NCBI GenBank assembly: GCA_019637095.1
Contig: JAHBWG010000055.1
Span: 1 to 64,000, forward strand
DNA length: 64,000 nt
Origin: Sandaracinaceae bacterium
GTDB taxonomy: Bacteria; Myxococcota_A; Polyangia; Polyangiales; Sandaracinaceae
Direction of reading: 5' to 3'
Part shown: piece by piece, positions 6,112-37,939 of the stretch
Layout of the letters: each line of letters starts with the position of its first letter
Numbering within the stretch: the first letter of the stretch is position 1
Position numbers and translations under genes: made by a program
Notes under the pieces: generated by a model
Databases searched by the model: none
What the model was told of the DNA's origin: nothing
What the model saw: only the letters and a program-made list of their open reading frames with translations

Positions 6112-7076
6112 CGGTCCTCCTCGCGCACGTCGAGCGAGGCGAGCGCGACGGTGGTGCCCGCCTCGCCCCGCAACGCGTCGTGCAGATGTTCTACGTCGGT
6201 GATCACGGCGGCCCGGCCCGGCGCGCTCGCGAACCGCGCGGCCGCCTCCATCTTCGGTCCCATGCTCCCCGCAGGGAAGTGCCCATCGCGGGCGTACGCG
6301 CGCACCGCCGCGGGGTCGAGCCGGCGGAGCGGGCGCGCGGACGGAGTCCCGAAGCCCGCATACGCCGCGTCGACGCCGGTCACGATCGCGAGCAGCGACG
6401 CGCCGATCGCGTCCGCGAGGAGGGCCGACGCGAGGTCCTTGTCGACGACCGCCTCGACGCCCTCGAGCCGCGCGCCGACGCGCACGACGGGCACGCCGCC
6501 GCCGCCCGCGGCGATCACGACCGCGCCCTGATCGCAGAGCGGGCCGATCAGCTCCACGCCGAGGAGCTCGCGCGGCTCGGGGCTCGGCACGACGCGCCGG
6601 TAGCCGCGGCCGGCGTCCTCGCGCAGCACGAAGCCCTCGGTCGCGAGCGCCCGCGCGCGCGCGGCGTCGTAGAACGGCCCGATCGGCTTGTCTGGATGCC
6701 CGAAGGCAGGGTCGTCTCGATCCACGACGACGTGCGTGAGCAGGCTCGCGACGGGGCGCCGCGCGCCGCGGCGCGAGAGCTCGTCGTGGAGCGCGAGCGC
6801 GAGGACGTGGCCGAGCTCACCCGCGGTCTCCGCGACGCAGACGTCGAGCCCGATCGCGTACGCCTCGCCGAGCGCGCGCTCGACGCGCGTGAGCGCGTGG
6901 CCGACCTGCGGGCCGTTGCCGTGCGTGATGACGAGCGGACGCGTCGGCCCGAGCGCGTCGAGCAGCGCGCCGACGACCCGCCGCGCGAAGTCGATCTGAC
7001 CCGCCATCGTCAGCGGGACGCCGGGCGACGCGAACGCGTTGCCGCCGAGGGCGACGACGGCGCGGCCGCCGCTCAC
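6090..7076 (-). CDS. arcC: Carbamate kinase
   Basis: This enzyme interconverts carbamoyl phosphate plus ADP with carbamate plus ATP. The 328-residue product has the amino-acid-kinase fold signatures: VVALGGNAF at the N-terminus, ITHGNGPQVG, VIAAGGGGVPVV, the lysine-bearing VDKDLASALLA, and FPAGSMGPKMEAA near the end. The GTG at 7076 overlaps the preceding stop (GTGA). No arginine deiminase or ornithine carbamoyltransferase is visible nearby, so it is not part of a standard arc operon here. It is translationally linked to the COG2403 GTPase downstream. Confidence 0.92.
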   Translation of the reverse strand: MSGGRAVVALGGNAFASPGVPLTMAGQIDFARRVVGALLDALGPTRPLVITHGNGPQVGHALTRVERALGEAYAIGLDVCVAETAGELGHVLALALHDELSRRGARRPVASLLTHVVVDRDDPAFGHPDKPIGPFYDAARARALATEGFVLREDAGRGYRRVVPSPEPRELLGVELIGPLCDQGAVVIAAGGGGVPVVRVGARLEGVEAVVDKDLASALLADAIGASLLAIVTGVDAAYAGFGTPSARPLRRLDPAAVRAYARDGHFPAGSMGPKMEAAARFASAPGRAAVITDVEHLHDALRGEAGTTVALASLDVREEDRWATSAS

Positions 7077-8443
7077 GTCGCGCTCCCGCGGCGGCGGAGC
7101 GCGAACAGACCGAGCACCGCCGCGCCGAACGGCGCCGCGCCGCGCGCCGGCGACGCCGGGCGCGTGACGCGGCAGCCGCAGCCACCGCTCGCGCCTCCCG
7201 TGCCCGCGTCGAGCGCGCCGGATCCTGCGTCGGAGCCCGGCCCCGCGTCCGGGCGCTCGGGGCGGCGCGGGATCTCGCCCGTCACGAGCGGCGGCGCGAG
7301 CGGCGGGCACTCGGCGAGCCTGTCGGGCGCGCAGCGCGTGCGGAACGAGAAGAGAAACGGCTCCGTCGTGGTGCGCCCGTCGAGCGTCTCGACGCCGGCC
7401 GCGAGCTCGATCGTGTACTCGGTGTCGTAGGCGAGGGGCGCATCGGGCCGCAGGAACACGAGGTTGCGGTCGCGGCCGCCGTATGCGGTCTGGACGGTGA
7501 ACGGCACCGCCGCCCCGCCGCCCGCTTCGGAGAGAGACAGCAGCGGGCGGATCTGATCGCGCTCGATCCCGTAGCCGAACCACAGCGCCGGGCGGCCCCA
7601 CGCGACCGTCTCGTCGAGGCTCACCGGCCGGTTCACCCCGCCGTCCTCGGGGAGCGTGCGGATCACGAGCTGCGCGTCCACGTCGTCACGCGCGTCCAGC
7701 CGGTCGAGCACGACCTGCCAGTAGTCCGCGATCAGCGCGCCGAGCCAGGGGACCGAACCGACCGCGTCCAGGTCGTAGACGAATGTACCAAGGAAGGGAT
7801 ATTGCGCCCAGGCGTCCCAGTAGAGGTTCCCCGCGATGCGCGGGTTGCCTTGCACGTCGAGGACCGCCGACATGCGGCCTTGCCCGTTGATCAGCGTGCT
7901 CTGGGTGACGTCGTGACCGACCGCGGCCATCGCCGCCGAGAGCTCGCCGTACGGACCCCACGGCTCGACATCGAGCGCGACGCCGTGATCGACCACGAGG
8001 AAGTAGTCCGCGTACTGGTCGACGGGTCGCGTCGAGTCCTCGGGACCGTCGACCTCGAAGGCGCGGTCGAGGAGCGTCGTGTCGTAGCTCTGGTCGGCCA
8101 TCCCGTGCGAGGCGACGCCGAGCGCGAACGCGACCGCGCGCTGCGCGTCCGGCGAGGACAGGTCGCCGCCGTAGGTCGCGCGGAGCTGCGCGATGAGCGC
8201 CCCGAGGAAGGGCTCCCAGTGCGCGAGCTCGCCGTAGGGATCGTCGATCGCGTAGCCCGAGTCGGGGAACATCGAGCCCGCCTCGAGCGCCGCGCGGTTG
8301 GTCGGCGAGGCCAAGAGCGTCTGGAGCGCGCCCGGGCCGAGCCCGTCGGCGGCGAGCTGCGAGATGTGCACGTGCGTGAACGCCCCGTTGGCGGACGCGA
8401 GCGAGGGCACGAGCCAGAGCCCGAGGACGGCGAGCGTGCGCAT
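7073..8443 (-). CDS. Zinc-dependent phospholipase C-like protein with MYXO-CTERM tail
   Basis: This is a 456-residue exported protein. After a signal peptide (cleavage near ASA-NG), residues 20-230 resemble the all-helical zinc-dependent phospholipase C / S1-P1 nuclease fold: [39 protein letters not shown] and VVDHG supply the expected His/Asp ligands. An Ig-like Big_5 domain (about 270-385) follows, then an Asp/Gly/Ser linker and a MYXO-CTERM tail: GCGCRVT, a short hydrophobic helix and ALRRRG. Such tails are thought to be cut by a dedicated myxosortase-type protease and lead to surface display. TATTCT lies six bases before the ATG. First gene of the overlapping set ending with rsmI. Confidence 0.7.
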
Positions 8444-30864: not shown

Positions 30865-31740
30865 ATGAGCGGACGGGTGCTCGGCGTGATCGGAGGCAGC
30901 GGCCTCTACGCCATGGTGGGGCTCGAGGACGTGAAAGAGCACGTCGTCGAGACGACGTTCGGGGAACCGTCGGACGCGGTCGTCGCGGGGCGCCTCGGCG
31001 ACACCCGCTTCTTGTTCCTGCCCAGACACGGCCGCGGCCACCGGCTCGCGCCGCACGAGATCGACTACCGCGCGAACGTCCTCGCGCTGAAGATGCTCGG
31101 CGCCGAGCAGATCGTGAGCGTCTCGGCGGTCGGCTCGATGAAGGAGGCGATCCGCCCCGGCGACGTCGTGCTCCCCGACCAGCTCATCGACCGCACCCGG
31201 ATGCGGCCGAGCACGTTCTTCGAGGGGCTCGGCGTCGTCGCGCACGTCGAGCTCGCCGATCCGATCGACCCCGCGCTCTCGGAGGCGCTCTACCGCGCGT
31301 GCCTCGAGGTCGGCGTGCGCACGCACCGCGGCGGCACCTACGTGTGCATCGACGGGCCGCAGTTCTCGACGCGCGCGGAGTCGAACCTCTACCGCTCGTG
31401 GAGCGTCGACGTGATCGGGATGACGAACCTCCCCGAAGCGCGCCTCGCGCGCGAGGCGGAGCTGCCCTACGCGACCCTCGCGCTCGCGACGGACTACGAC
31501 TGCTGGCATGCGTCCGAGGCCTCCGTGAGCGTCGAGGCGGTGCTCGAGGTGATGAAGAAGAACGTCGCCGTCGCCCAGGCAGTCCTGCGCGGCCTCGCCG
31601 CGATCCTCCCCGACCCGGCGAGGAGCCCCGCGAGCCGCGCGCTCGAGCACGCCGTCGTCACCTCGCCCGACCAGATCCCGGCGGCCTCGCGCGCCAAGCT
31701 CGCGCCGGTCTGCCCCCGCAAGTTCGCTTCCACCCGTTGA
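30865..31740 (+). CDS. mtnP: S-methyl-5'-thioadenosine phosphorylase
   Basis: This enzyme phosphorolyses methylthioadenosine to adenine and methylthioribose-1-phosphate in polyamine/methionine salvage. The 291-residue product has IGGSGLYAM, RHGRGHRLAPHEIDYRAN, SAVGSM, the methionine-salvage signature CIDGPQFSTRAES and IGMTNLPEARLAREAELPYA with the ATDYDCWH end. These residues favour MTAP over purine nucleoside phosphorylase. GGAGGTAGGG precedes the ATG. A PfkB-type kinase follows 36 bases later. Confidence 0.9.
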   Translation: MSGRVLGVIGGSGLYAMVGLEDVKEHVVETTFGEPSDAVVAGRLGDTRFLFLPRHGRGHRLAPHEIDYRANVLALKMLGAEQIVSVSAVGSMKEAIRPGDVVLPDQLIDRTRMRPSTFFEGLGVVAHVELADPIDPALSEALYRACLEVGVRTHRGGTYVCIDGPQFSTRAESNLYRSWSVDVIGMTNLPEARLAREAELPYATLALATDYDCWHASEASVSVEAVLEVMKKNVAVAQAVLRGLAAILPDPARSPASRALEHAVVTSPDQIPAASRAKLAPVCPRKFASTR

Positions 31741-31776: not shown

Positions 31777-32700
31777 ATGCCTGAGAAGAACCCCAACCTG
31801 CTCGTGGTCGGCTCGGTCGCGCGCGACACGCTCCACCTCCCGACCGGCTCGCACGACTACGTGCTCGGCGGCTCGGCCGTGTTCGCGAGCCTCGCCGGCT
31901 CGCTGTTCACGAGCCCTCGGCTCGTCGGCATCGTCGGCACGGACTTCCCCGACCACGAGGTCGCGATGCTCGCGGCGCGCGGCGTCGACGTGAGCGGCCT
32001 CGAGATCGTCGGAGGCGACACCTTCCACTGGGAGGGCCGCTACTCGGACGACCTCACGAGCCGCGTCTCGCTCAAGACCGAGCTCAACGTGTTCGCGGAC
32101 TTCCAGCCGAAGATCCCCGAGGCGTTCCGCGACACGCCGTTCGTGATGCTCGGCAACATCCACCCCGATCTCCAGCTCGCGGTGCTCGACCAGATGCGGC
32201 GGCCCGAGCTCGTGATCGCCGACACGATGAACTTCTGGATCGAGGGGACGCCCGATCGGCTCGCCAAGCTCCTCGAGCGCATCGACGTGCTCGTGATCAA
32301 CGAGGAGGAGGCCCGCCAGCTCGCCGGGGTCTACAACATCGTCGAGGTCGCCGACCGGCTCCTGCGCATGGGCCCGCGCATCGCGGTGATCAAGCGCGGC
32401 GAGTACGGCGCGCTCTTGTTCGAGGGCGACCAGGTGTTCAGCGCGCCCGCGTACCCGGTGCGCCGCGTGCTCGATCCCACGGGCGCGGGCGACTCGTTCG
32501 CAGGCGGGATGCTCGGCTACGTGTCCGAGGTCGGCGTCGCGGATCACGGCACGCTGCGGCGCGCGATCATCTACGGCTCGGCGCTCGCCTCGTTCTGCGT
32601 CGAGGGCGTCTCGGTCGAGCGGCTCGCGCAGGTGAGCCGCGAGGACGTCGAGACACGCTACCGCGCGTTCGCGCGCCTCGCGAGCTTCGACTCGCGCTAA
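31777..32700 (+). CDS. PfkB-family carbohydrate/nucleoside kinase
   Basis: The 307-residue ribokinase-fold enzyme has the N-terminal GSVARDTL, the substrate-side GGSAVFASLAGSLF, VINEEEARQLAG and the catalytic anion hole DPTGAGDSFAGGMLGY with the general-base Asp. The substrate cannot be read from the sequence. Being next to mtnP, it may phosphorylate adenosine, a (methylthio)ribose derivative or another salvage product, but that is inference from context. It has no obvious promoter of its own and is probably cotranscribed with mtnP. Confidence 0.85.
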   Translation: MPEKNPNLLVVGSVARDTLHLPTGSHDYVLGGSAVFASLAGSLFTSPRLVGIVGTDFPDHEVAMLAARGVDVSGLEIVGGDTFHWEGRYSDDLTSRVSLKTELNVFADFQPKIPEAFRDTPFVMLGNIHPDLQLAVLDQMRRPELVIADTMNFWIEGTPDRLAKLLERIDVLVINEEEARQLAGVYNIVEVADRLLRMGPRIAVIKRGEYGALLFEGDQVFSAPAYPVRRVLDPTGAGDSFAGGMLGYVSEVGVADHGTLRRAIIYGSALASFCVEGVSVERLAQVSREDVETRYRAFARLASFDSR

Positions 32701-32748
32701 GGTGTCTGGACCTGGGCTCCGGGGAACTTCGACGACAAAGGGGATGTG

Positions 32749-33702
32749 ATGCGGTCTCTTCTCATGACTTCGATCCTCGCGCTCGCGCTCGCGGGCTGCG
32801 ACGGCAACGGCGGCACCGACTCGGGGATGCCGCCGACGGACTCCGGCCCGCCGGCGAGCGTGTGCCCCCGGACGAACGTGCCGAACCCCGACGAGCTGAT
32901 GGGGCCGTGCTGCTACCGCGTCGACCAGACGTCCAAGCGCGAGGCGCCGGAGATGCGCCTGACGTACCTCGAGCTGGTCGAGCCGATGGACTCGCCGCTC
33001 TCCTCGATGACGCTGCGCACCGTGCTCAACACGTCGATGCAGGAGGAGCGCTTCAACTGGCTCTTCCGCACCACGGGCGCGGGCGCGGACGGCACGGTCG
33101 AGATCGTGACCGGCTTCGGCCGTCGCAACGCGGACGGCACGTACAGCTTCTCCGCCGGAGCGGCCAGCAGCGATCCCGCCGAGTGGTGCCCGGTCCAGAT
33201 CCCGGCCACGCTCGCGAGCGAGGTCGTCAACTCGTCGGATCTCGATGGCGCGATCGCCGTCCCGGTGTTCGACACGACGGGCACGAACCTGCAGGTGGTG
33301 CTCGAGCTGCAGGCGCTGAGCATCCAGAACGCGCGCTGGACGGAGAACCGGAGCTGCATCGGCACCAAGACGAACCGGCCGTTCACCTACGATCCCGACG
33401 CCCAGCTCACCGCATACATCGACGTCGCGCGCGCGCGCACGCAGATGATCAACGTGCCGCCCGTCATGACGACGGTGTGCGCCGCGATCGCGGGCTCGCT
33501 CGACGCGCCGACCTATTGCGACGACAACGCCCAGGGCGCCTGGATGGTCCCGCCCGACTCGCTCTGCGACGCGTCCGGCTGCCGCCGCAACGCGGCGGGC
33601 GCGACCGACGTCTGCGACCCGGCGACGAGCTGCAACGCGTGGCGCATCGTCGGCCGCTTCGCCGCCGCCGGCATCACGATCACGAACAGCACCTGCGATT
33701 GA
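32749..33702 (+). CDS. Lipoprotein, function unknown
   Basis: The 317-residue product has a strong lipobox signal (LALALAGC, Cys17), an Asp/Gly/Pro linker and a ~285-residue beta-rich mature domain with about a dozen cysteines, some clustered (GPCCYR, DASGCRRN, ATSCN). The start ATG follows AAAGGGG by five bases; an in-frame GTG lies one codon upstream. No family recognised. Confidence 0.65.
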   Translation: MRSLLMTSILALALAGCDGNGGTDSGMPPTDSGPPASVCPRTNVPNPDELMGPCCYRVDQTSKREAPEMRLTYLELVEPMDSPLSSMTLRTVLNTSMQEERFNWLFRTTGAGADGTVEIVTGFGRRNADGTYSFSAGAASSDPAEWCPVQIPATLASEVVNSSDLDGAIAVPVFDTTGTNLQVVLELQALSIQNARWTENRSCIGTKTNRPFTYDPDAQLTAYIDVARARTQMINVPPVMTTVCAAIAGSLDAPTYCDDNAQGAWMVPPDSLCDASGCRRNAAGATDVCDPATSCNAWRIVGRFAAAGITITNSTCD

Positions 33703-33820: not shown

Positions 33821-36800
33821 ATGTATCGCTTGGATCACTTCACGGCGTATCGGCTGGGGCTGATCGTCATGCTCACGCTCACCTTGTTCGCGTGTAGCGG
33901 CGGCGGCGGCTGTTCCGGCTGCGAGAGCTGCGGCATCGCGCCGATCCCGGGCGGCTACCCGATCGAGGAGCGGATCGACAACTCCGCGCAGATGCGGCTG
34001 ACGCCACACGGCGTCGCGTTCCTAGAGAACAACGTCGACGCGCTCGCGAACATCCTGTTCCCCGAGGGGCTCGACTTCACGATCGACGAGCAGCAGCAGA
34101 CGTTCATCATCACGATCACGATCTGCCGCGGCGGCGGGTGCATCGCTCACCTCGAGATCGACTCGATCGACCTCTCGCCGACGGACCCGAACCTCCTGCG
34201 CGCCCATGTCCGGCTGATCATCGAGAGCCGCCGGCGCGACGGCACCCGCGGGCCCTGGCCGGGCACCTGCGATCTCGACATCGACACGCGCCGCGGCAGC
34301 CGCCGCTACGTCGGCCTGATCGCGGACATCCGCGTGCGCGCCGTCGAGGCGAGCCGGCCCGCGCGCGGCGGCTACTCCGAGATCGTCGTCGAGCGCATCG
34401 AGCTGCTCGACGGAGAGGGCATCGAGAACGACGACATCCGCATCTCCGGCGGCTTCCTCGGCTCGTGCGGCGCGCTCAACCTCGACCTGTTGAAGGGCTT
34501 CATCATCGACCAGGTCGCCGGCCAGCTCGGCGGCCTCGCGGACAGCGCCGTCGGCGACAACCTCTGCACCACGCAGGGGGAGCACGGCTGCCCGACGGGC
34601 ACGTTCCCGGTCCCGAACAACACCGACCCCGACACGATCTGTCGGTACGCCCCCAGCGCCGACGCGGAGTGCGTGAGCCTCCTGCTCGGGATGGACGGCC
34701 GCGGCGACCTCGGGGGCCAGCTCATCGGCGGCTTCTCGCCGGGCACGCACGCCTACGCGCAGTTCCTGCTCGCGGCGGGCGGTGACGCGGTCGCCAACGA
34801 CGGCATGAGCCTCTTCTTCTACGGCGGCTTCATGGGCACGGACCGCACGTTCACCGAGACCCCGGCGCACAACTCGTGCGTGCCGGTGGTGCCGGTGCCG
34901 CCGCGGCCGACGATCCCGCGCGCCGCCGCGTTCCTCACCGGCAACACGATCCCCGGCACCTCGACCAACGCGGACATCGGCATCGGCTTGTCCGAGGCGT
35001 ACCTCGACTACGCGGGCTACGGGCTCTTCGACTCGGGCGCGCTCTGCATCGGCGCCGGGACGCGCCTGTCCCAGCAGCTCTCCACGGGGCTGCTGTCGGC
35101 GGCGATCATGAGCGTGCCGGAGCTGACCTACCCGGCCGCGGCGGCGCCGATCACGATCGCGCTCCGCCCGCAGCTCCCGCCGGACTTCTCGATCGGCGCG
35201 GGCGGCGACGCCGACCCGATCCTCCAGATCGAGCTGCCGCAGCTCCAGATGGACTTCTACGTCTGGAGCACCGAGCGCTACGTGCGCTTCATGACCTTCC
35301 AGACGAACCTGCGCATCGGGATCGACCTCACGGTGGAGTCCGGTGAGCTCGTCCCGCGGATCGTCTACGTCAACTCCGACGACCCCGTCGTGACCAACTC
35401 CGAGCTGCTCGCGGAGATGCCGCCGTTCCTGGCGAGCACGCTCTCGACGGTCATCGGCGCGTTCGCCGGCATGCTGGGCGGCGCCATCGATCCGTTCGCG
35501 CTGCCGGAGATCATGGGCATCGAGCTCGACGTCCCGCCGGGCGGCGTCACGCGCGTCCGCGAGGGCCCGAACGACTTCCTCGGCATCTTCGCGAACCTGC
35601 GGATCGCGGGCGCGGCGCCGCTCACCCGGCCGCTCGACACCACGCTCACGGTCAGCGACCTGCGCCTCGATCACGAGGCGATGCACCCCGCGACCTGGGG
35701 CGCGAACGGCGGCAACTCCGTGTGGCTCCACTTCGACGCGAGCGGCATCGAGGGGGTCGAGCACGAGTACAGCTACCGCATCGACGGTGGCGCGTGGTCC
35801 GCGTGGACGCGCGAGCCGCGCGTGCTCGCACGGAACGACGTCCTCCTGCTGCAGGCGCGGCACGTCGTCGAGGCGCGCGCCCGCGTGGTCGGCGAGCCGC
35901 GCACCGTCGATCCGACGCCCGCGCGCGCCGAGCTGCTCGTCGACATCCTGCCGCCGCGCGTGACGGTCGGCCGGACGGTGGACGGCGTCGAGGTCACCGC
36001 GATCGACCTGCTCACGCCGCGTGATCGGCTCGAGTACCGCTACCGCGTCGACGGCGCGTGGACGGCCTGGACCGAGCGCGCGCGGCACCCGCTCGCGCTC
36101 GACGCCGCCGGCGTCGAGGTCGAGGTCCGCGACGAGGCCGGCAACGTCGGCCGCGCGGAGGCCGCGCTCATCCGCGGCCTCGGCAACCCCGAGGCGGGCG
36201 ACGGCTGCGGCTGCCGGGTGACCGGCGACGAGAGCCGCACCCCGTTCGCGCTGCTCGCGCTGCTCGGCGCGCTCGGCGCGATCTTCATGCGGCGGCGGCG
36301 CCAGAGCGTGGCGCCGTTCCTCGGCGTGCTCGCCCTCGCGATCGCGGGGCTGCTCGCGTCGGGCTGCGAGTGCAGCGAGCCGATGACCGGGCTGCCCTGC
36401 GGGGGTCGCTGCATCGCCGCGGCCCCGCCGGTCACGACGAGCGGCTCGGTCTGCTGCGAGGCCACGGACATGTGCTCGATGTACGACGTGGACGCGCTCT
36501 GCGACCCCGGCTACACGTGCCCGCTCGCGAACCTCGTGCTCGACGCGACCTGCAACGTGACGTGCTCGGCCTGCGAGGCCAAGCCCGCGCTCGAGCCCGG
36601 CATCCTCGCGACCGACCTCGACATGGTCGTCGACGAGTCCGGGCAGGTCTTCGTGTCCGGCTACAGCCCGGGCAGCCCGCAGGGTGGGGACTTCGGCGAC
36701 CTCGTGTTCGGCCAGTGGAGCGGCACCGCCGTGACGTGGGAGATCGTCGACGGCGCGCCGCGCACCCCGATCACGAACGACCCGACCGGCTGGCGCGGCG

Positions 36801-37939
36801 GGGTCAGCGACCCGGGCGACGACGTCGGCCGGTGGACCTCGCTCGCGAACCAGGGCGGCACGTTCCTCATCACGCACTACGACGCGAGCAACGGCGCGCT
36901 CCGCTTCTCCGCGGGCGGGCCCGGCGCGTGGGCGTCGCACACGATCGACGACGCGGGCGACTCCGGCCGCTACTCCTCGCTCGTGCTGCTCGCCGACGGA
37001 ACGCCGGTCGTCGCGTACCTGCGGATGGCGCCCGACGCGACGAGCCCCGAGGTGATCCGGGGCTCGGTGATGGTCGCCACGGCGAGCTCGCCCAACCCGT
37101 CGGCCACGACCCACTGGACGCTGACCGAGGTCGCCTCGGCGCCGATCCCTTGCCGGCCGCTCACGTGCGGCGGCCTCGCGCGGGCGTGCCTCGAGACGGG
37201 AGAGTGCGTCGCGCCGGCGAGCGACTGCGGCGCCGCGTGCCCGAGCGGCGAGGCCTGCTACGCAGGCAGCTGTCGCGCGGCGCTCCCGCCCAACTACGTC
37301 GAGGATCTGCCGCCCGCGTACGGCCTCTACACCTCGCTCGCCGTGATCCCGAGCGGCGGGCTCGCGCTCGTGTTCTACGACCGCACGAGCGGCAACGTGT
37401 TCGGCGCCACGTCGACGGACGGAGCGAGCTGGGGCGCGCCGTTCTTGATCGACGGCTACCGCGTCGGCGACCCGAACGTCGGCGACTGCGGCATGTCCGC
37501 GAACCTCGCCGTCGACGACAGCGGGCTCTGGCACGTCGTCTACGTCGACGGCGCGGAGGAGACGCTGCGCTACGCGCAGGTGCGCGGCGACGGGACCGTG
37601 GTGAGCCGCGAGGTCGTCGACGACGGCTCCACCTCGGACGGCACGACGCGCTTCACCGACGGCCGGCACATCGTCGGCGACGACGCGTCGATCGTGGTCG
37701 AGCCCGGCGGCGGCGTGCGCGTCGTCTACCAGGACGCGACGAGCCAGCACGCGGTCCTCGCGACCCGCTCGGCGGGCGGCGGCGCGTGGTCCATCGAGCG
37801 CTTCGACACGACCGGCTCGACCGGGTACTGGCTCGAGCAGCAGCTCCTGGGCACGACGAGCTACGCGGCGGCCTTCTGGCGCCAGCGCGTGGGTCGGGCG
37901 ATGCAGAGCGGCGTGCGCGTCGTGAGCCTCACCCCGTGA
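33821..37939 (+). CDS. Apparent fusion of a MYXO-CTERM lipoprotein with a second complete lipoprotein
   Basis: The 1372-residue protein starts with its own lipobox signal (LTLFAC, Cys25). Residues ~30-790 form beta-rich domains ending in two Ig-like modules (EYSYRIDGGAWSAWT and EYRYRVDGAWTAWTERA). At 794-827 comes an entire MYXO-CTERM: DGCGCRVT, a 17-residue hydrophobic helix and four arginines, where such proteins normally stop. Reading continues with no linker into a second hydrophobic stretch ending in the lipobox LLASGC (Cys849), then a Cys-rich part and a beta-propeller-like region to the end. The frame is open throughout. It could be a true polyprotein or two genes joined by loss of a stop; no ribosome binding site precedes the internal ATG at 36287. 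Confidence 0.8.
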   Translation: MYRLDHFTAYRLGLIVMLTLTLFACSGGGGCSGCESCGIAPIPGGYPIEERIDNSAQMRLTPHGVAFLENNVDALANILFPEGLDFTIDEQQQTFIITITICRGGGCIAHLEIDSIDLSPTDPNLLRAHVRLIIESRRRDGTRGPWPGTCDLDIDTRRGSRRYVGLIADIRVRAVEASRPARGGYSEIVVERIELLDGEGIENDDIRISGGFLGSCGALNLDLLKGFIIDQVAGQLGGLADSAVGDNLCTTQGEHGCPTGTFPVPNNTDPDTICRYAPSADAECVSLLLGMDGRGDLGGQLIGGFSPGTHAYAQFLLAAGGDAVANDGMSLFFYGGFMGTDRTFTETPAHNSCVPVVPVPPRPTIPRAAAFLTGNTIPGTSTNADIGIGLSEAYLDYAGYGLFDSGALCIGAGTRLSQQLSTGLLSAAIMSVPELTYPAAAAPITIALRPQLPPDFSIGAGGDADPILQIELPQLQMDFYVWSTERYVRFMTFQTNLRIGIDLTVESGELVPRIVYVNSDDPVVTNSELLAEMPPFLASTLSTVIGAFAGMLGGAIDPFALPEIMGIELDVPPGGVTRVREGPNDFLGIFANLRIAGAAPLTRPLDTTLTVSDLRLDHEAMHPATWGANGGNSVWLHFDASGIEGVEHEYSYRIDGGAWSAWTREPRVLARNDVLLLQARHVVEARARVVGEPRTVDPTPARAELLVDILPPRVTVGRTVDGVEVTAIDLLTPRDRLEYRYRVDGAWTAWTERARHPLALDAAGVEVEVRDEAGNVGRAEAALIRGLGNPEAGDGCGCRVTGDESRTPFALLALLGALGAIFMRRRRQSVAPFLGVLALAIAGLLASGCECSEPMTGLPCGGRCIAAAPPVTTSGSVCCEATDMCSMYDVDALCDPGYTCPLANLVLDATCNVTCSACEAKPALEPGILATDLDMVVDESGQVFVSGYSPGSPQGGDFGDLVFGQWSGTAVTWEIVDGAPRTPITNDPTGWRGGVSDPGDDVGRWTSLANQGGTFLITHYDASNGALRFSAGGPGAWASHTIDDAGDSGRYSSLVLLADGTPVVAYLRMAPDATSPEVIRGSVMVATASSPNPSATTHWTLTEVASAPIPCRPLTCGGLARACLETGECVAPASDCGAACPSGEACYAGSCRAALPPNYVEDLPPAYGLYTSLAVIPSGGLALVFYDRTSGNVFGATSTDGASWGAPFLIDGYRVGDPNVGDCGMSANLAVDDSGLWHVVYVDGAEETLRYAQVRGDGTVVSREVVDDGSTSDGTTRFTDGRHIVGDDASIVVEPGGGVRVVYQDATSQHAVLATRSAGGGAWSIERFDTTGSTGYWLEQQLLGTTSYAAAFWRQRVGRAMQSGVRVVSLTP

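Follow-up and report, generated by a model that had tools for sequence, protein, structure and literature searches.

Does an open reading frame that runs from a MYXO-CTERM sorting tag straight into a lipoprotein signal stand for one surface protein or for two? The question is raised by a gene at 33821-37939 of the 64,000-nucleotide stretch of a Sandaracinaceae bacterium genome analyzed here (contig JAHBWG010000055.1, hereafter the window), in which a predicted BPI-like protein is joined head to tail with a predicted beta-propeller. The answer that we consider likely is that the gene encodes a polyprotein cut by a myxosortase and by signal peptidase II, giving two separately lipid-anchored surface proteins. 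A preliminary description of the locus, made from the letters of the DNA, had offered this reading with a lost stop codon as its alternative.

A conserved junction between two sorting tags

Read directly, the frame is uninterrupted from its ATG at 33821 to the stop at 37939 (1372 amino acids counted from the ATG), open on both sides of the join as described before, and the elements around the join are those that had been reported (Table 1). The MYXO-CTERM near residue 795 is complete, with signature, a single helix and RRRR (824-827), and the whole protein scores 27.7 bits against TIGR03901 over residues 794-827 (cut-off 20), while the same tag reaches 35 bits in a genome scan with this model. 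Its GCGCRVT motif (residues 795-801, 36203-36223) also stands near the true C terminus of the protein encoded at 7073-8443, a minus-strand gene. A second helix (833-847) and a lipobox (Cys849) follow directly at the positions first assigned to them, with CECS at residues 849-852 (36365-36376). The MYXO-CTERM is not at the extreme C terminus, as 545 residues lie downstream of it, and the second signal is internal as well, being N-terminal only in three split relatives (G021, G129, and G030). The protein begins with another lipoprotein-type signal, and almost all of 25 aligned relatives have an N terminus of this kind.

Table 1. Features of the fused gene, and related genes elsewhere in the same genome. 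Positions without a prefix are those of the window.
Feature	Location	Strand	Basis or remark
Whole fused gene	33821..37939	+	1372 aa; ATG 33821 with GGAGG five bases upstream; alternative start GTG 33803
N-terminal lipoprotein signal peptide, residues 1-24, lipobox LFAC	33821..33892	+	Sequence
Putative first product: N-terminal Cys25 and two-domain BPI/LBP/CETP-like TULIP fold, approx. residues 25-597	33893..35540	+	Predicted structure
Two fibronectin-III/immunoglobulin (Ig)-like domains, approx. residues 600-790	35541..36190	+	VIA matches
Internal MYXO-CTERM: DGCGCRVT (Cys796, Cys798), helix 809-822, RRRR 824-827	36200..36301	+	TIGR03901
Second signal: short putative cytoplasmic stretch, helix 833-847, lipobox LASG ahead of Cys849	36302..36364	+	Kept in 121/121
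Putative second product: Cys849-led lipoprotein, Cys-rich N terminus, then beta-propeller (lectin/sialidase-like)	36365..37936	+	Predicted structure
Myxosortase MrtC, 256 aa	C110, L100:971-1738	-	EExxxR- and HxxxN-like motifs by eye
Zn-phospholipase-C-like protein joined to lipoprotein	C194:28431-31931 (L209:932-4432)		Second internal MYXO-CTERM and lipobox
DUF4114/MopE-repeat protein joined to MopE/BNR lipoprotein	C138:42476-47836 (L210:2977-8337)		Third internal MYXO-CTERM and lipobox
Matrixin-like MYXO-CTERM protein joined to FGE-sulfatase-domain lipoprotein	C32:10348-12699 (L211:3349-5700)	-	Fourth case

The fused frame is old and well conserved. The whole protein occurs in one uninterrupted frame in relatives from several families of the same order (57 related genomes were searched), and a homologue is present in 96 of 145 genomes of the order. 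About 100 loci were extracted, and every stop-to-stop frame was classified with hidden Markov models (HMMs) of both halves. Fused loci number 86 within the order, and a further 35 come from families beyond it, mostly of other classes and with single-contig genomes among them, which brings the count to 121 fused orthologues from about 20 Myxococcota families. So ce26, So ceGT47, and So0157-2, three strains of Sorangium cellulosum with finished chromosomes, are included, and the gene is also fused in Sandaracinaceae and in Polyangium fumosum DSM 14668. The comparison of orthologues for one gene or two, which the preliminary description had called for, therefore comes out on the side of one gene, as only 3 loci had separate genes for the two halves, two of them with a start overlapping the stop.

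All 121 fused loci keep the MYXO-CTERM cysteine, a helix, Arg/Lys residues, a loop, a second helix, and [GAS]Cys, in that order, which puts the junction far outside what chance would give. The residue preceding the lipobox cysteine is G in 101 loci, A in 17, and S in 3, counts that are conditional on a detection rule requiring [GASN]Cys after the second helix, whereas the finding of zero failing loci is not conditional. Between the two cysteines the spacing ranges from 36 to 94 residues. When 68 diverse junctions were aligned, Cys849 was the sole invariant column, and only Cys798 and Arg825 passed 90%. The pooled pN/pS is 0.33 at the junction versus 0.23 in each half (17 close pairs), and the junction is constrained coding sequence under purifying selection. 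The loop varies freely between two fixed cleavage motifs, as would be expected of a discarded piece.

The split relatives are informative about where the two halves part. The first gene of G021, ending WRRRSSRRDARTKAVK, has one base of its TGA in common with the ATG of gene 2 (TGATG overlap). Gene 2 begins MNARTCLVGALALTLAGVANPGC, exactly at the second signal. The halves of G129 are separated at the join by a GTGA overlap, and those of G030 lie on different contigs. The stop/start overlap at the join in two split loci supports the two-product reading, and the covalent link is dispensable in the split lineages, because two of them divide exactly at the join and the third has its halves on different contigs. 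Stand-alone first-half paralogues stop directly after the arginines. In a tree of the first half (FastTree only, with some long branches), split and stand-alone forms are scattered among the fused ones, with at least 8 changes, so that the fusion looks ancestral and fission secondary. Two minor observations belong here. The second half in G030 adjoins a gene whose product resembles, by eye, the product of 30865-31740 in the window, and close behind one stand-alone first-half paralogue (L155, G142:C226), which ends RARARAR, there is a gene with a lipoprotein-like start (MSTRARFTAVGLLLSGLAAFAAC).

Recurrence of the junction and a proposed route

The junction is not confined to this gene. Among 50 MYXO-CTERM matches of the genome that have a readable downstream frame, 46 end within 23 residues and 4 are internal, and all 4 internal ones, in four unrelated proteins, run into a helix and a lipobox. 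Two of the three other junction proteins are also conserved as fusions. The Zn-phospholipase-C-like fusion is found whole in 7 relatives of several families, and the MopE-repeat/BNR fusion is fused in about 12 relatives and split in G013, G027, and G049, where GGAGGT stands five bases ahead of an ATGA overlap. The matrixin/FGE pair, on the other hand, is encoded by separate neighboring genes wherever a relative showed both halves, so this fusion must be recent. A scan of Sorangium So ce26 with the MYXO-CTERM HMM gave 28 matches, each of them terminal; the fused gene of that strain scored under the HMM threshold, and the model therefore undercounts internal tags. We lean, by a little, toward a general polyprotein cassette in Myxococcota, in which a C-terminal sorting tag set head-on to a lipoprotein signal would be cut by two different intramembrane proteases, a myxosortase and signal peptidase II, so that a single gene would yield surface proteins that are unrelated but made as a matched pair. 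As one part of this, and with the same slight preference, the BPI-like/propeller pair would have been held together by the fused tags since early in the phylum.

Both enzymes that such a route would use are encoded in the same genome. MrtC (NF040594) scores 257.4 bits against a cut-off of 195, and LspA (PF01252) is found twice, with matches lying side by side at C90:97017-98056 (122 and 108 bits). MrtX was below its cut-off in all 57 genomes scanned. The enzyme that cleaves MYXO-CTERM proteins in Myxococcus xanthus is a CPBP protease, and the conserved cysteines are needed (PMC11980579).

In the simplest account, the N-terminal signal would export the BPI-like half, after which the helix of the MYXO-CTERM could act as a stop-transfer sequence that keeps the arginines cytoplasmic. 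The second helix would then restart export as an internal lipoprotein signal and carry the propeller half out. MrtC would cut after the MYXO-CTERM cysteine, Lgt and LspA would lipidate and cut at Cys849, and the hairpin between the cuts would be thrown away, leaving two separately lipid-anchored proteins in a 1:1 ratio. One would be a BPI/LBP-like protein carrying lipid at its N terminus and probably also at its C-terminal Cys798, and the other a lectin-like propeller lipoprotein led by Cys849. Our guess as to why the two would be made one to one is that the BPI-like protein and the propeller form a complex.

One chain, two chains, or an artifact

High-GC frames readily stay open, and recent stop losses do occur in this genome, as the matrixin (C32 peptidase)-FGE fusion indicates, so that a lost stop codon, or a sequencing or assembly error joining two neighbors, deserves to be considered. 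For the fused gene we rejected it, and we give it practically no credence, because the same fusion is present in 121 orthologues across the phylum, including the finished Sorangium cellulosum chromosomes and single-contig genomes of other classes, and because purifying selection runs through the join. Another way to obtain two proteins would be an internal translation start at the join, the fusion then being incidental read-through. An in-frame ATG at 36287 (Met823), a point absent from the preliminary description, lies directly ahead of the RRRR, and MRRRR followed by the helix and LASGC (MRRRRQSVAPFLGV...LASGC) would make a good lipoprotein signal; the split relatives G021 and G129 do restart at the join. 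This ATG has no Shine-Dalgarno (SD) sequence, however, and any ATG in the matching stretch is found in only 20 of 86 relatives, so it is not conserved. In-frame starts with an SD match of at least 5 bases occur at the join in 2 of the 86, versus 3.8% in control windows taken from these frames, which is no excess and agrees with the earlier remark that no internal ribosome binding site is seen. The GGAGGT that precedes the overlap in true split pairs of the MopE type is missing from the fused genes, and an internal start would leave the absence of a stop codon in 121 genes unexplained. With neither SD enrichment nor a conserved ATG, this candidate was rejected as very improbable.

A less remote alternative is that the chain stays whole, with the two-helix hairpin tethering both domains to the inner membrane, or that it is cut once and one half is left on the hairpin. 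The continuous frame kept phylum-wide would suit such a protein, and the cleavages, being so far deduced, leave room for a whole or once-cut chain. We nevertheless consider it rather unlikely, as a plain hairpin has no need of an invariant MYXO-CTERM cysteine, or of an invariant [GAS]Cys placed right at the helix end, and the split lineages described above divide at the join or carry the halves apart. Some points count against cleavage into two lipid-anchored products. We know of no demonstrated case of LspA cutting at an internal lipobox, and position -3 of the lipobox is looser here than in Escherichia coli (A, L, S, F, V, and W). The conserved cysteine could instead serve a disulfide, though only 77 of the 121 loci have the CxC partner. 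We infer the topology, both cleavages, the lipidation, the surface location, and the 1:1 pairing from genes rather than from protein evidence, and lipidation of MYXO-CTERM proteins is still a hypothesis even in M. xanthus (PMC11980579). The reading with myxosortase and signal peptidase II remains the best supported of those considered, because both tags are conserved and the loop is not, because the second signal is precisely where the split relatives part, and because the genome encodes the enzymes.

Folds, related systems, and gene neighborhood

Profiles of both halves, searched against Pfam, NCBIfam, and PDB sequences, found no family, and a profile search of PDB sequences with the first half gave no TULIP chain, so only the folds are informative about the halves. 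The AlphaFold2 model of the first half (46 sequences; predicted local distance difference test score [pLDDT], 87.9) matches human BPI (1bp1) with a Foldseek E value of 1.3e-17 and a VIA Z of 17.5 over 424 residues (model 28-572), the next unrelated fold reaching 9.9; CETP and LBP were matched as well. From this model we can predict a two-domain BPI/LBP/CETP-like TULIP fold and a putative lipid binder. It differs from BPI, LBP, and CETP in being bacterial, in having Ig-like domains and two surface tags, and in giving no sequence-level match. The corresponding region of the window thus appears to code for a bacterial version of this two-domain fold, probably cell surface located in Myxococcota. 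For the Ig/fibronectin-III-like pair the VIA Z is 8-10 over model 577-766, little over the usual background for such a common fold. The second half (45 sequences; pLDDT, 93.3) matches PHL/PLL lectins with an E value of 7e-12 and a VIA Z of about 30, and its nearest fold is CylK (VIA Z, 33.8). It is predicted to be a lectin-like beta-propeller, which CylK and other propellers fit as well as the seven-bladed PLL type does. Together, this suggests one gene in which a lipid-binding protein and a lectin-like propeller are joined by two back-to-back sorting tags, giving two surface proteins from one chain.

Each of the two tags has a well-known counterpart. As in the MYXO-CTERM/myxosortase system (TIGR03901; MrtX, MrtC), there are a signature cysteine, a helix, an arginine run, and an MrtC over its cut-off, but the tag is internal here. 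As in Lgt/LspA lipoproteins, there are a charged stretch, a hydrophobic helix, and [GAS]Cys, and the signal is an ordinary N-terminal one in split relatives, whereas here it sits mid-protein behind a putative stop-transfer helix. Internal MYXO-CTERMs have been described as rare, and the one discussed is MXAN_5598 of M. xanthus, whose N-terminal part the authors propose to be cut and surface anchored and whose gene they regard as possibly a fusion (PMC11980579). That protein is likewise a single open reading frame with an internal MYXO-CTERM, but what follows the tag is an outer-membrane beta-barrel carrying OmpA domains, while our second part starts with a lipobox and has other cargo, and our junction is ancient, conserved, and recurrent.

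To our knowledge, bacteria very rarely mature a polyprotein into two surface proteins with separate anchors. In the cytochrome b/c1 precursor FbcH of Bradyrhizobium, also a bacterial polyprotein, an internal signal peptide is the site at which the second product is released, but by signal peptidase I and without a C-terminal sorting tag or lipid anchors. The names of the NCBIfam models NF058595 (lipo-invert) and NF033207 (midcut-by-XrtH) suggest inverted or mid-protein processing tags. Compared by names and scores only, they gave weak matches to 21 and 2 of the 68 junctions, respectively, and NF058595 reached 10 and 19 bits on two whole proteins, under its cut-off of 37, so kinship is a lead and not established. 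In the literature, we met no description of a MYXO-CTERM joined to a lipobox, none of phylum-wide conservation of such a junction, and none of the BPI-like/propeller fused family, and searches on internal lipoboxes, internal signal peptide polyproteins, FbcH, lipo-invert, and midcut returned nothing useful.

The junction is phylum-wide, and its conservation falls exactly on the residues that a pair of sorting enzymes would be expected to require, so direct tests are possible of whether myxosortase and LspA act mid-protein, of lipidation at the MYXO-CTERM cysteine, and of the reason for the proposed one-to-one synthesis of a BPI-like protein and a propeller. Such frames are annotated in genomes as one protein, and the resulting localization predictions would be wrong if both cuts occur.

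Regarding the neighborhood, a PfkB-family kinase gene (31777-32700) lies upstream of the fused gene, as it does in about 20 of 44 named relatives, and in several of those the window's lipoprotein gene (32746-33702) also stands between the two.

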